64,000 bases of DNA, taken from the NCBI GenBank assembly GCA_028284365.1, contig JANQRW010000059.1, forward strand, positions 1 to 64,000, in the 5' to 3' direction. Position numbers and translations under genes: made by a program. Below the pieces are notes generated by a model. The model worked only from the letters and a program-made list of their open reading frames with translations, did no database searches and was not told the origin of the DNA. Shown one piece after another: positions 5,247 through 45,717 of this stretch (the stretch's first letter is position 1; every line of letters starts with the position of its first letter). The DNA comes from Marinicella sp. (lineage in GTDB: Bacteria > Pseudomonadota > Gammaproteobacteria > Xanthomonadales > Marinicellaceae).

Positions 5247-6677
5247 ATGAACGCAGTAGTAAATATTAAACAAGACAACAACACCTCAAATGCTCAGTTA
5301 CAAGCTGACTTCGAAGCTATGAGGACACTTTATAACAAGAAACCAGCTCCCTCGTATGAATGCAGGAAAACTGTATTGAAAAGATTGAAAAAATCTTTGA
5401 TTGAAAACGAGCAAAATATTTATGAAGCTTTGAAAAAAGACTATGGATACAGGAGTGAATTTGATTCACTGATTGCTGATGTATTACCCAGTGTCGCAGG
5501 CATCAATTATGCCTTAAAAAGGCTGAAAAAATGGATGAAACCATCTAAACGGCATGCTGGTTTAATGCTTGCACCATCTAAAGTCACCGTACACTATCAG
5601 CCATTAGGGGTTGTGGGCGTCATCACTCCTTGGAACTTCCCTGTCTTTTTGGCGCTGGGTCCAGCCATTCAAGCTTTGGCAGCTGGTAATCGTGTGATGA
5701 TTAAAATGAGTGAGTTCACTCCTCATACCAATCAAGCTTTACGCAAAGTAGTCGAGCCTATCACCTCTCACGTGAAGATTGTTGAAGGTGAGGCTGAGAC
5801 AGGTGCTGCTTTTTCAGCTTTACCTTTTGATCATTTGATTTTCACTGGGTCTACGAATGTCGGCAAATTAGTTGCTCGTGCTGCTGCCGACAATTTGACT
5901 CCGATCACTCTTGAAATGGGTGGAAAATCTCCAACCATCATTTCTGATGAAATCAATATGGATGCTGCAGTGGATGCCATCATTATTGGCAAATCTGTAA
6001 ATTCCGGTCAAATCTGTGTATCTCCAGACTATGTTTTTGTTCCTGAGAATCGACAAACAGAATTTGTTGAAACGTTCAAAAAACGTTATGCAGAATATCA
6101 TTTGTCTGGAAACAATACCAATATCCAAACAAATATCGTTACTGAGCGTCAGTTTGACCGTTTGAAAGGTTTTTTAGCAGATGCAGAAGACCGAGGCGCA
6201 GATATCCATCCTGTTAAGAAACATGAGCCAAGAGATGGAAGACGAATTTATCCTCACATTGTGACCAATGTGAATGAGGATATGAAGGTCATGCAAGAAG
6301 AAATTTTTGGCTCAATTTTGCCTGTGATTACATACAAGCACATTGATGAGGTCATTCAATACATTAACGAACGTCCAAGACCACTTGCTTTATACATCAT
6401 GGCTACAGACAAAGGATTGATTAATAACCTGTTGCAAAACACTCACAGTGGTGGTGTATCGATCAATGATTCAGCCATGCATGTAGCTGCGGACGATGCT
6501 CCATTTGGAGGAATCGGCAATTCTGGAATGGGTCATTATCATGGCCATGAAGGATTCTTGACTTTCTCTAAAGCAAAAACTGTTCTGCATTCAAAAGCAT
6601 GGTTGCCTAAGAATAGATTCATATTGAAGAACCGTGACTTTGTATTTAGAGCATTGCGTAGATTTTTATTGAAATAA
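5247..6677 (+). CDS. Aldehyde dehydrogenase family protein (coniferyl-aldehyde-dehydrogenase-like)
   Basis: GVVGVITPWNFPVFLALGPAIQALAAGNRVMIK; FTGSTNVGK; LEMGGKSP; SGQICVSPDYV. Confidence 0.92.
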   Translation: MNAVVNIKQDNNTSNAQLQADFEAMRTLYNKKPAPSYECRKTVLKRLKKSLIENEQNIYEALKKDYGYRSEFDSLIADVLPSVAGINYALKRLKKWMKPSKRHAGLMLAPSKVTVHYQPLGVVGVITPWNFPVFLALGPAIQALAAGNRVMIKMSEFTPHTNQALRKVVEPITSHVKIVEGEAETGAAFSALPFDHLIFTGSTNVGKLVARAAADNLTPITLEMGGKSPTIISDEINMDAAVDAIIIGKSVNSGQICVSPDYVFVPENRQTEFVETFKKRYAEYHLSGNNTNIQTNIVTERQFDRLKGFLADAEDRGADIHPVKKHEPRDGRRIYPHIVTNVNEDMKVMQEEIFGSILPVITYKHIDEVIQYINERPRPLALYIMATDKGLINNLLQNTHSGGVSINDSAMHVAADDAPFGGIGNSGMGHYHGHEGFLTFSKAKTVLHSKAWLPKNRFILKNRDFVFRALRRFLLK

Positions 6678-40398: not shown

Positions 40399-43300
40399 TC
40401 AGTCAAAGCCATTAAAATAAATAATATCTTCTAAAGCTGGAAATTGACTGACTTCAGGTTGCTTAAACGGCACATCAAAAAGTGTTAGCCGAGCAAAATC
40501 ACCAGCACTGTTCTCCAAACCAGTTGATACAATATCATCTATCATGAAACGCATGATTGTTGCTGCATTATCTATAACTGCCTTGTTATTGGTATCTGTG
40601 GCTGTGAATTGTAGAACGCCATTCACATATCCACTTAACTGACCAGCACCACTGCGACTGAGGATAACCTGGAAATATTCATCACCAATCACCGAGTTCA
40701 CTGGACCCACTGCACCACTAACAGCTTCAAAGTTCAAAGCAGAATTGAAGTTATATAAACCCGCATCACCGGCTAAATCATTGAAGTCAATCAGCTTCAC
40801 ATAGCCGTTAGCGTCATCGATTTGTAACAACATTGCAATGGTGTATTCATCATCCAAAACCAATCCATCAACACCAAGTGAAAACCCTTCTCCAGCATCA
40901 AAAGGCAACACTGTTTTGCTCATTCCAAGCACCTCATCGCTTAAATAATCCAGTGAGCCGTTATAAACCAGGTCAGGTGCTCCCGGAATAACACTGCTCA
41001 AAGTATTTTCAAACCAATAATCAGCAACCCTGGCAGCTCGTACAGCGAGTTCACCACTGACAACCAAATCCGCTGAACTCGAGGCTGACAGCATTTCACC
41101 GTTTGCCAGTAAGCCTCCAATTTCACTACTAAATACGCCAAAAGATTGCTGCTCTGACAAGCGCACTGTCAAACTGAACTGGCAACTTGAGTTTCCGCTC
41201 AATGATGCATTTTCCAAGCTCAAAGTTTCACCTGCGATAAAATTTGATCCTTCACCACAAGGATTTTGTGGGATACCACCAATCACTTCATAGTCAGCAG
41301 TAACCAATTGCAAGGCATGTCCAAAACGGAAACCTTCAATAGTCTGGTCCGATAGGTTTTCAATCGAATAACTCACAACTGTCGTTCTACCTGCATCAGT
41401 TGGATTATCAAAGGTGAAGCTTAATGACAATGGAAAAATCTGCAGGTCAGCGGTGGCTGGCGAACCAAAAACACTCAACCCATTTATCGAGCCATTTACC
41501 GCCGCTGTTGTGCTTGGATAAGTGCCACCGTTTGCATCCATTGGCAATTGCATCGTTACGATAAACTCACAACTTTCACCAGCTGCAAGCTGACCACTGG
41601 TGAAAGCAAGCACCTCGGTTCCTGAAATAACAGAACCAGCACCACAAACATCATTCACAGGGGTAACAGAAGCAACCAACCCCCCAATGGTGACTGATAA
41701 ATCATGGGTGAAAGACAAATTTGACAAGGCCTCAGTACCACTTAGGTTCTGCAACGAATACTGCAATGAAACAACATCTCCTGGTGAATGGGGGCTGTCT
41801 AAAAATGCCATTGCAAAACCAATTAATTCAGAGTCGACAACCAAAGTACTTGAAGATGCCGCAATCACAGCACTGGAGGCATTGATGGTGGCACTGAGGT
41901 TACTGGTCAGGCTGTTGTATTGGCCATCAGCCGATGATACCGGAGTTTGTAAAGCCACTTGAAATGTGCAGCTTTCACCTGCAAGCAAATTTCCACCAAC
42001 AAAAATCAGCACGCTTGTACCTGATAGTGATGAGCCACTGCCACAAATACCAGACAGCGTACCATCTGTGGACACCAGCCCAGGCAAAATTTGATTCATG
42101 TTATGAGTGAAAACCATACCAGTGCTGTCAAATATCGAGTTATTCTCTATGGTAAATTCGAGCGTGACAGCCGCTCCTGATATCACTGGATCATCTAAAA
42201 ACTGATGGCTAAACGTCAACCCCCCAATGACCAACTCATCTTGACCTGCTGATGAGGAAGTTGATAGGCCGGCAGTGGTCGCGCTTAACACAGATGTGAT
42301 ACTCATGTAACTTCCTGGGGCAGCACTGGCCGGCACTTGCATACTGATATCAAATTCACAACTTGTCGCTGGCTGTATGTTGCCTCCTGTGAAGGTGATG
42401 AGACCTGCACCTGAAACAGACGAGCCTAAACCACAAACATCATTCAATGGTAAATTAAGGGCTGTCAACCCATTCAGGGTAGCGCCCAAATCCCAAGTAA
42501 AGTTCATGGCACTTGCCTCACCTGGACTGTTTTCAGCCAGACTGATACTAACCCGGGCATTAATCACATCACCAGGCATGACTGGATCATCAATAAACTC
42601 AACACTGAAATCAGGGCCTGTTACCACTGATAAAACATCACTGGCAATAACGCCTTGTTGTGCCAACCCATCAACCGTTGCGGTGATCGCATTGGTTTCA
42701 TTCAAGTAGTCCCCGGTTGGGGTATTCACTGGAACAGTTAGATCAGCACTGAATGTACAATCTTCCCCTGCAGCAAGATTAGCTCCACTGACGGTGAAAA
42801 TGTTTTGGCCACTGTTATTGGCAACAAACGCAATTGAACCACCACCACAAAAACCGCTTGCTGGTAAAGCGCTTAAAACAGCACCAGAAAGGAATCCTGA
42901 GATGTTATCCTGAAAGGCAATGTCAGTTGCAGCGCTGGTGGTACTGGTGTTGGAGATGGTGAATTCCATGGTGGTGGTATCACCAGCACCAATTGTACCA
43001 GTTAAAAATGTTTTACTTAACGAAGGTGCTGAACTAACGGTCAGAGGCCTTGTTGATGGATCACCAAAACTCTCCGCTGAGCTAACTGCTGATGTGATGT
43101 TCTGATAGGTTCCTGCAGTTGCATTGGCAGGAATTTGTAGGCTTACCACAAAATCACAACTTCCCTCCGGTGGCAAAACACCACCTGAAAAAGTGATTGC
43201 AGAACTGCCATTAACAACCGAGCCCATTCCACAAACATCATTCAGAGGTAGGTTGGTTGCAACCATACCAGATAGCGTCGCATCCAAGTCATTGGTGAAA

Positions 43301-44265
43301 CTGATCGCTGTTGCTTGGTCAGTGCGATTAAAATTAGTGATTGAAAACTCAAGATCAACCGTTCCTCCAGCACTGGTAAAACCGGGAAGAAAACGCTGAG
43401 CCAACAGCAATTCACCATTAATCTGATTCATCACAACAGCATCGGTTGCGAAACCACTGCCACCATTAGAACTGTTTAAAACTGAAGTTACATTTATTTT
43501 TTGGCCCACAAATGGTTCGACCATGACATCTACAGTTATTGTGCACATTTCACCAGGCATTAAAAAACCACTGAAAAAACTGATGCTGCTGCTGCCAGGT
43601 TCAGCCGTAACGGTGCCCAAACAAGTTGTTGTCAGGTTTGAGGCATCAGCCACCCGCATCCCCTCAGGCAGAGGGTCAGTAAAACTTAAATTAATAGCAT
43701 TAACTCCGACCAAAGAATTATCAACAGTAAAAGTTAAAGTGCTGAAGGCCTCACTAAAACCAAACTTATTGGGAGAAAAAGTTTTGGTTAAAATCGGACG
43801 ACTGGCTAAAACATCCAATGTACTTGTGGCATTGCCACTGTTACCTGCACTTGATGTTAGATCACTCGAAACATTTGTATATGAAGTGTCAAGATTTCCA
43901 GTCACAGTCACAGTCACATTAACAGTTACAGTACAAAAAGAAAAAGGAGCCAATGTGCCTTCACTGAAAGATATGGCAGAACCACCATCTGGCGCTGACA
44001 GTATCGCTCTGTCACAAGTGGTATTGGCATTGGCGGGTTCAGCCAGACTGATCCCCGATGGCAAAGTGTTACTAAAGCTCAGATCAGTGACCAAAACACC
44101 GGATTGATTGTTGATAACAAAACTGACTTCTGTTGAAGTGCCTGGTCCTATGGTTGATGGGCTAAAACCCATACCAAAACTTGGTTGAGCTCCTGCATAA
44201 TCGGTTGACAGCAAAAACACCAAAGCCAAAAACAACTTAACTTTTAAGTTTTCAATATGAATCAT
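40399..44265 (-). CDS. Large exported protein of tandem Cys-paired DUF11-like repeats with LamG-like C-terminal domain
   Basis: ~1288 aa; about eight repeats of the form ..L.LNDVCGxGSxxxGxxxxxFxGGxLxxxxSCxFxVxxxxP..; C-terminal VADYWFENTLSS...LamG-like; ends FNGFD. Confidence 0.8.
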   Translation of the reverse strand: MIHIENLKVKLFLALVFLLSTDYAGAQPSFGMGFSPSTIGPGTSTEVSFVINNQSGVLVTDLSFSNTLPSGISLAEPANANTTCDRAILSAPDGGSAISFSEGTLAPFSFCTVTVNVTVTVTGNLDTSYTNVSSDLTSSAGNSGNATSTLDVLASRPILTKTFSPNKFGFSEAFSTLTFTVDNSLVGVNAINLSFTDPLPEGMRVADASNLTTTCLGTVTAEPGSSSISFFSGFLMPGEMCTITVDVMVEPFVGQKINVTSVLNSSNGGSGFATDAVVMNQINGELLLAQRFLPGFTSAGGTVDLEFSITNFNRTDQATAISFTNDLDATLSGMVATNLPLNDVCGMGSVVNGSSAITFSGGVLPPEGSCDFVVSLQIPANATAGTYQNITSAVSSAESFGDPSTRPLTVSSAPSLSKTFLTGTIGAGDTTTMEFTISNTSTTSAATDIAFQDNISGFLSGAVLSALPASGFCGGGSIAFVANNSGQNIFTVSGANLAAGEDCTFSADLTVPVNTPTGDYLNETNAITATVDGLAQQGVIASDVLSVVTGPDFSVEFIDDPVMPGDVINARVSISLAENSPGEASAMNFTWDLGATLNGLTALNLPLNDVCGLGSSVSGAGLITFTGGNIQPATSCEFDISMQVPASAAPGSYMSITSVLSATTAGLSTSSSAGQDELVIGGLTFSHQFLDDPVISGAAVTLEFTIENNSIFDSTGMVFTHNMNQILPGLVSTDGTLSGICGSGSSLSGTSVLIFVGGNLLAGESCTFQVALQTPVSSADGQYNSLTSNLSATINASSAVIAASSSTLVVDSELIGFAMAFLDSPHSPGDVVSLQYSLQNLSGTEALSNLSFTHDLSVTIGGLVASVTPVNDVCGAGSVISGTEVLAFTSGQLAAGESCEFIVTMQLPMDANGGTYPSTTAAVNGSINGLSVFGSPATADLQIFPLSLSFTFDNPTDAGRTTVVSYSIENLSDQTIEGFRFGHALQLVTADYEVIGGIPQNPCGEGSNFIAGETLSLENASLSGNSSCQFSLTVRLSEQQSFGVFSSEIGGLLANGEMLSASSSADLVVSGELAVRAARVADYWFENTLSSVIPGAPDLVYNGSLDYLSDEVLGMSKTVLPFDAGEGFSLGVDGLVLDDEYTIAMLLQIDDANGYVKLIDFNDLAGDAGLYNFNSALNFEAVSGAVGPVNSVIGDEYFQVILSRSGAGQLSGYVNGVLQFTATDTNNKAVIDNAATIMRFMIDDIVSTGLENSAGDFARLTLFDVPFKQPEVSQFPALEDIIYFNGFD

Positions 44266-44523
44266 TCTTATCCCCCAATTTTGTCTTGTCATCTATCTTA
44301 ACACCTACAAAATTATTCCTCCAGAGTGGTTAGTGACTATTCGAATAAACTAAATCCTTAACCTCAATGAGTTGTTCGGCCCATCGACCCCTACCATGCT
44401 GGGCAGTACGCTCAAACAAGCACACCATCCGCTTTAAGCCTTCTTGCCTAGTAGCAAAACCACTTAAACGTTATTAAGACGCTGCTTAATTAAGCATACC
44501 GATCAAACCAGCCAGCAGAACTT

Positions 44524-44548
44524 GTTATCCACAATTGCTGTGGATAAC
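44524..44548. promoter_or_regulatory. Inverted pair of perfect consensus DnaA boxes
   Basis: gTTATCCACA-attgc-TGTGGATAAc; both match E. coli consensus TTATCCACA. Confidence 0.7.
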
Positions 44549-44605
44549 TTTGTGTACAAGTAAGGAAATTGGAGCATAAAAGGCGGTGTCATCAAATCAA
44601 GACAC

Positions 44606-44630
44606 GCTTTGGTTAATTTTTAACCAAAGC
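44606..44630. repeat. Perfect 11-bp stem hairpin
   Basis: GCTTTGGTTAA-ttt-TTAACCAAAGC. Confidence 0.85.
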
Positions 44631-44796
44631 AAATAAACCAATTAACATCAATGATTTACAAAACTTATTAGATGTTGTTTTTTAATTAGATACAGTAAAT
44701 TCTTGTTTTATGACTTCAATGTGACAAGGTGTGTATAAAATTAAAAAATCAAGTGTTTTTTTAATTTTTTCAATACAGCAAGTTTTGACAAGTTGC

Positions 44797-45717
44797 TCAT
44801 TCGCTATAAGCTTCAGCAGTGGCATCATGCGGGTGCAATGATTCATGATGGGTGACACGCAAATGAAACTGTTGTACCAGCTTCTCCCTGCTTAAAGCTT
44901 GCTTAATTCGACGCGCCGCATCTTCACAAAACATCAAGTTTTGACCATTTCTTAAGGCAAATGCCTGCTCATCAGCACGTTTCACTGCAGCTTGAACAGC
45001 CGTTTGTAATGCCTGCTCAACCAAGTCGATCATTTTTTGCAACGGCACTTGTTGTTGCTGTTGGTCTAACTTGACTTTAATCACTGCTGAACTGCGCTGA
45101 CTGTGCGGAGTGGCATTGATACCTTGTTCTGAGCCCAACCAGTCAACCACAGCTTGATAATCAAAATTCTCAGCATCAAAGTTCTGTTTGAAATTTTCCT
45201 GAATCAACTGGCGAGCCAAAGCAGCCGAACAAGGACAAGTACTGGAATAGGTTACTTGGAAACTTAAATATTGGCTGATGCCAGTCTTATGACATTGAAC
45301 CACGGTCAATTTAATCGGGTATGAACGCCAACCTGCATATTCACTCACCAATGCAGGGCGGCGCAGTAAAGCTTCCGACTCGACCTCAATCAAAGCGTTG
45401 CTGCTTAAACCCTGGTGTGATTGTAAAAATTGTTGGGTTAATTCTGTCAGCACTGAATAGTCAATATTTTGTTGACTGAACACATCATCACAAGCCAGGT
45501 ACAAACGTGACATATGAATGCCTTTAGAGACTTCATCGTCCAAAGAAACTTCTGCTCTTACTCGCGCCACTGCACTTGGAACAAGCGCATCAGCAGATAA
45601 ATTGAGCGGCATTTCAATGTCACTCATACCGACCCACTGGAGCTGGCCACCAATTAAGGCTTTTTCTTCTGCGGCAATATCCGGTAACGTGGGTGATTGG
45701 TTGGTTGAATCTAACAC
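44797..45717 (-). CDS. folE2: GTP cyclohydrolase FolE2 (type IB)
   Basis: QWVGMSDIEMPLNL; GIHMSRLY; TYSSTCPCSAALARQL. Confidence 0.93.
   Translation of the reverse strand: MLDSTNQSPTLPDIAAEEKALIGGQLQWVGMSDIEMPLNLSADALVPSAVARVRAEVSLDDEVSKGIHMSRLYLACDDVFSQQNIDYSVLTELTQQFLQSHQGLSSNALIEVESEALLRRPALVSEYAGWRSYPIKLTVVQCHKTGISQYLSFQVTYSSTCPCSAALARQLIQENFKQNFDAENFDYQAVVDWLGSEQGINATPHSQRSSAVIKVKLDQQQQQVPLQKMIDLVEQALQTAVQAAVKRADEQAFALRNGQNLMFCEDAARRIKQALSREKLVQQFHLRVTHHESLHPHDATAEAYSE

Follow-up and report, generated by a model that had tools for sequence, protein, structure and literature searches.

We found that an element of approximately 215 bases near folE2, at positions 44525-44738 of the window (the whole 64,000-nucleotide stretch of Marinicella sp. 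DNA analysed here), is very probably a DnaA-reactivating sequence of the DARS2 type from a gammaproteobacterium of the Marinicella group, at which we infer nucleotide exchange. In E. coli, DARS2 is a DNA site that recharges the replication initiator DnaA with ATP. An earlier note on this DNA had suggested a datA- or DARS-like locus, an unrecognised origin or a DnaA-regulated promoter; a DARS-like reactivation locus is well supported, and the specific match is to DARS2, not datA. The source genome is a draft of 91 contigs. The features of the region, with the IHF and Fis sites called by consensus match, are as follows.

44525-44533, plus strand: DnaA box I, TTATCCACA, perfect; faces box II head to head
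44539-44547, minus strand: DnaA box II, TTATCCACA, perfect; 5 bp from box I
44551-44559, minus strand: DnaA box III, TTGTACACA, 7/9; tandem to box II, with 3 bp between the two
44611-44625, no strand given: predicted Fis-type site, GGTTAATTTTTAACC, 0 mismatches to GNTYAAWWWTTRANC; +86 from box I
44646-44658, plus strand: IHF-like site 1, CATCAATGATTTA, 1 mismatch to WATCAANNNNTTR; +121
44696-44708, minus strand: possible second IHF-like site, AAACAAGAATTTA, 1 mismatch
44730-44738, minus strand: DnaA box IV, TTATACACA, 8/9; +205
44797-45717, minus strand: folE2, a conserved neighbour (11 of 32 genus copies)

A head-to-head core of three DnaA boxes

The core has the layout TTATCCACA-N5-TGTGGATAA-N3-TGTGTACAA, which with its spacers reads TTATCCACA-ATTGC-TGTGGATAA-CTT-TGTGTACAA. 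We confirmed the inverted pair of perfect DnaA boxes that the earlier note had described, GTTATCCACA-attgc-TGTGGATAAC at 44524-44548; boxes III and IV had escaped that first reading. The perfect box TTATCCACA occurs 55 times genome-wide compared to 25 times for a reversed control. Since the genome has just two head-to-head pairs separated by 15 bp or less, one in the window and one on contig C72, both with a spacer of 5, and the reversed control has none, the inverted pair is not due to chance. DARS elements are described as characterised by a head-to-head arrangement of boxes I and II, which is essential to them (PMC10380432). A 5-bp spacer separates these two boxes in the window, as it does in the DARS1 and DARS2 cores of E. 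coli and in all genus matches, and box III follows box II in tandem at exactly 3 bp with a 7/9 match.

The E. coli DARS1 core (MG1655; L090:2108-2142) is TTATCCACT-ATTCC-TGTGGATAA-CCA-TGTGTATTA, and the DARS2 core (MG1655; L089:2636-2670) is TTATTCACC-TTTTC-TGTGGATAG-AGT-TGTGAAGAA; the latter corresponds to the box I-III region deleted in PMC4585315. L089:2952 was also considered as the DARS2 core and was rejected, as the box I-III region of PMC4585315 lies at L089:2636-2670 and L089:2952 is a second DnaA-box site. This second site (L089:2952-2986), TTATCCCAG-N5-TGTGGATAA-N3, lies on the mutH side of the DARS2 core, at a distance of approximately 316 bp, and resembles a degenerate core.

Predicted Fis and IHF sites beyond the core

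The hairpin and the AT-rich tract that the earlier note had pointed out are both present, as a palindrome with 11-bp arms, GCTTTGGTTAA-ttt-TTAACCAAAGC, at 44606-44630 and as a region of 77.6% A+T at 44635-44790 (58.1% for the window). What that reading did not recognise is the predicted Fis site in the hairpin, and the IHF-like sites and fourth DnaA box in the tract. The centre of the hairpin is the predicted Fis-type site GGTTAATTTTTAACC, a consensus match. Perfect 11-bp arms with a loop of up to 10 occur eight times in the window, and a hairpin of this size alone is not rare; the hairpin at 44606-44630 is notable for its sequence and its distance from the core, both kept in relatives. An RNA hairpin or terminator of folE2 is unlikely. 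There is no T-run after the palindrome on the folE2 strand, and the palindrome-to-core distance is kept in copies away from folE2, which fits Fis.

Conservation of the module

The earlier note had proposed conservation of the boxes in relatives as a check, and this was borne out. The perfect pair is present in 17 of 18 genus genomes, with one to three copies in each, and its spacer is always 5 although 0-25 was allowed. At the order level the pair was found in 268 of 300 genomes, and among the matches listed the spacer is N5 save for a few N17 readings, these including a third tandem box. A looser core pattern was found in 209 of 369 sampled class genomes, while in a 120-genome sample of the phylum the core is patchy and its spacing less uniform. 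Box III (at least 6/9) lies at exactly 3 bp, on one side only, in all 32 genus (Marinicella-group) cores, compared to 0-2 of the 32 at any other offset from 0 to 11; it is also present in 21 of 24 order loci and 16 of 16 class loci sampled.

With box I set to 0 and box III rightward, the 32 genus copies align without gaps, and the module fades near +240 to +260; conservation is absent across the genus copies in the 200 bp left of box I. The Fis consensus in this alignment is GGTTAAWWWTTAACC at +86. A Fis site with at most one mismatch is found at +85/+86 in 25 of the 32 copies, with one match at all other offsets together, and IHF-like site 1 (at most one mismatch) lies at +119 to +121 in 29. 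The second IHF-like site, on the minus strand at +169 to +171, is found in 24 of the 32 and is weaker in the wider set (14/42), and box IV (at most one mismatch) is found at +202 to +205 in 28. Overall, most of the 32 copies, found in approximately five gene contexts, differ by no more than 1-2 bp in the spacing of this site lattice.

We found 42 matches, in 41 stretches, when named genomes were scanned for the core plus the Fis palindrome; these came from Marinicella species, Lysobacterales and other gammaproteobacterial MAGs. Even with 19 gap lengths allowed, the Fis site lies at +75 (n=3) or +85-87 (n=39), a step of approximately 11 bp, or one helical turn. An IHF-like site follows the Fis site by 33-36 bp in 39 of the 42 matches, and a DnaA box follows it by 118-120 bp in 31 of 41; these cross-genus offsets come from samples of loci, and copies in related genomes are non-independent events. 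The shorter register also occurs in some class members (L097, L098). One Lysobacterales MAG contig carries two core-plus-Fis modules 3.8 kb apart (L165:2519-2620 and 6342-6443), a possible local duplication.

Gene context and copy number

In the window, the module sits between folE2 and a DUF7933 gene. The predicted protein encoded at 40399-44292 has 1297 amino acids with seven DUF7933 stretches, and its gene occupies the position at which six relatives have priA. Among the 32 genus copies, 11 adjoin folE2 (six of these with priA on the other side) and 14 adjoin tauE and/or polA; the remainder lie at ffh-trpS (three; trpS was named by eye from sequence), at a photolyase gene (three) and elsewhere (one). 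The second full module of this genome (L001:6329-6351; G000:C72:64328-64350) lies between polA and tauE, approximately 0.4 kb beyond polA, and carries a perfect Fis consensus, an IHF-like site and box IV at offsets equal to those of the window module. A mobile repeat is unlikely, as the binding sites alone are conserved between copies and synteny on the folE2 side is kept.

We asked whether the boxes might instead be a DnaA operator for a neighbouring gene, which would ancestrally be priA (replication restart helicase) and here the 1297-amino-acid DUF7933 gene or none. The core lies within approximately 185 bp of the priA start in several genus and many order genomes, order-wide it is often directly upstream of priA, and in E. 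coli, polA is among the replication genes with DnaA binding upstream (PMC11317965). However, in the genome of the window priA is on another contig (C81) and has no module copy beside it, and the full module is thus independent of priA. Other neighbours of the module are polA/tauE, ffh-trpS and photolyase genes, and it is often found at the 3' ends of genes. Spacing inside the module is constant, whereas the distance from module to gene varies. Because the module outlives the loss of its usual neighbour priA, and is intact in many unrelated gene contexts, the DnaA-regulated promoter of the earlier note has become the less likely reading, and we consider an operator improbable.

Comparison with datA and with the origin

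A datA-like site for DnaA titration or ATP hydrolysis would share with the element several DnaA boxes and an IHF-like site in non-coding DNA. In contrast, a head-to-head N5/N3 core has not been described for datA and is a DARS signature in the literature, datA depends for its activity on the DnaA boxes that flank its IHF site and does not require a conserved Fis site, and its biochemical effect is the opposite. We therefore regard this reading as highly improbable.

Neither dnaA nor dnaN is nearby, as the earlier note had observed. The dnaA of the genome is on contig C55, in the order dnaA-dnaN-recF-gyrB; the gap between dnaA and dnaN (L002; G000:C55:16273-16361), which contains DnaA boxes and is AT-rich, is the likely oriC. 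The presence of DnaA boxes beside an AT-rich tract had suggested an unrecognised origin, a reading with next to no probability since the dnaA-dnaN origin is on another contig: the locus has neither adjacent dnaA/dnaN or gidA nor a tandem box cluster with an unwinding element, only three core boxes in head-to-head layout, and elsewhere a genome can carry as many as three copies of the element.

A probable DARS2 variant with its predicted Fis site before IHF

IHF plus Fis are required at E. coli DARS2, where ADP release needs both kinds of site and helical phasing (PMC4245941). The module resembles E. coli DARS2 (rppH-mutH region) in its three-box core, where an N5 spacer separates the head-to-head boxes I and II and an N3 spacer precedes box III, in an IHF-like site approximately 110-120 bp from box I, in a further DnaA box at approximately +205-211 and in its Fis sites. 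By consensus, the window has the IHF-like site at a fixed core distance (+121) and a perfect predicted Fis site at +86. The IHF-like site lies at +109 in E. coli, approximately one helical turn closer, which fits the shorter (+75 Fis) register. The core of E. coli DARS1 (bioD-uvrB) is nearly identical to that of the window; nothing in DARS1 corresponds, at these offsets, to the Fis, IHF and box IV lattice of the window module.

The order of sites differs. In Marinicella the strong Fis site is proximal, between core and IHF (core-Fis-IHF), whereas the essential Fis sites of E. coli DARS2 lie beyond its IHF sites (core-IHF-Fis). No conserved degenerate Fis consensus was found near box IV among the genus copies. 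Boxes I and II are perfect in the window module, unlike in E. coli DARS2, and box IV is opposite in direction to E. coli box V. The element lies at folE2/priA or polA/tauE in up to three copies, not at rppH/ygdT-mutH, a location that lies outside the mechanism. Points against the DARS2 reading are the Fis/IHF order, the non-mutH locus, a Fis-like protein of 69 bits and an IHF site with one mismatch. Since Fis precedes IHF, and box IV orientation, copy number and chromosomal place differ, the window element appears to be a variant of DARS2. A literature search that missed most subscription papers returned no relevant match for DARS2 with priA or Xanthomonas.

Proposed mechanism and implications

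The genome encodes DnaA, Hda (TIGR03420, 140 bits, under the 195 cut-off; adjoining a permease gene and dnaX), IHF alpha (pheT-ihfA), IHF beta (rpsA-ihfB) and a Fis-family protein (adjoining purH; its 69 bits fall short of the NCBIfam cut-off of 99), with neighbour genes named by eye from sequences. Therefore, the proteins exist for ADP-DnaA formation and DARS2-type reactivation. Alongside the established binding-site anatomy, fixed spacing, conservation and presence of dnaA, hda, ihfA, ihfB and fis, we infer binding, nucleotide exchange and cell-cycle timing at the module by analogy. ADP-DnaA would occupy the head-to-head boxes I and II, supported by box III, and the DNA would be bent by IHF in the AT-rich tract and by Fis bound to the palindrome, leading to ADP release. 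DnaA could then take up ATP again, and ATP-DnaA would rise ahead of the following initiation; the module should thereby recharge ADP-DnaA in growing cells. In E. coli, ATP-DnaA assembled from box V displaces Fis (PMC8682772), and box IV probably serves a comparable feedback or extra assembly.

We next considered chromosomal position. In G002, dnaA is flanked by two copies, the one at polA 83 kb away and the one at priA 85 kb away; one copy lies 87 kb from dnaA in G003, and copies lie at 114 and 216 kb in G017. Because the distance is 775 kb in G006 and varies widely in other families, proximity to the origin is a tendency in few genomes and no rule. A tentative and rather doubtful extension is that the DARS2 modules of the Marinicella lineage form a duplicated origin-proximal pair approximately 85 kb either side of oriC (as in Marinicella litoralis), fused to priA/polA intergenic regions, which might tie DnaA recharging to origin copy number and possibly to restart/repair gene expression. 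In E. coli, by contrast, DARS1 and DARS2 are single and mid-arm.

To our knowledge, work on DARS2 has been confined almost entirely to E. coli and its close relatives. A distant group in which the element reaches three copies per genome, keeps a fixed Fis-IHF-DnaA lattice and occupies other chromosomal positions amounts to a natural experiment that bears on which of the spacings are important and on the reason that the chromosomal position of DARS counts. The module often adjoins replication genes, and because its spacing is strict, a pattern search can annotate DARS2-type sites in many gammaproteobacteria that have yet to be studied.
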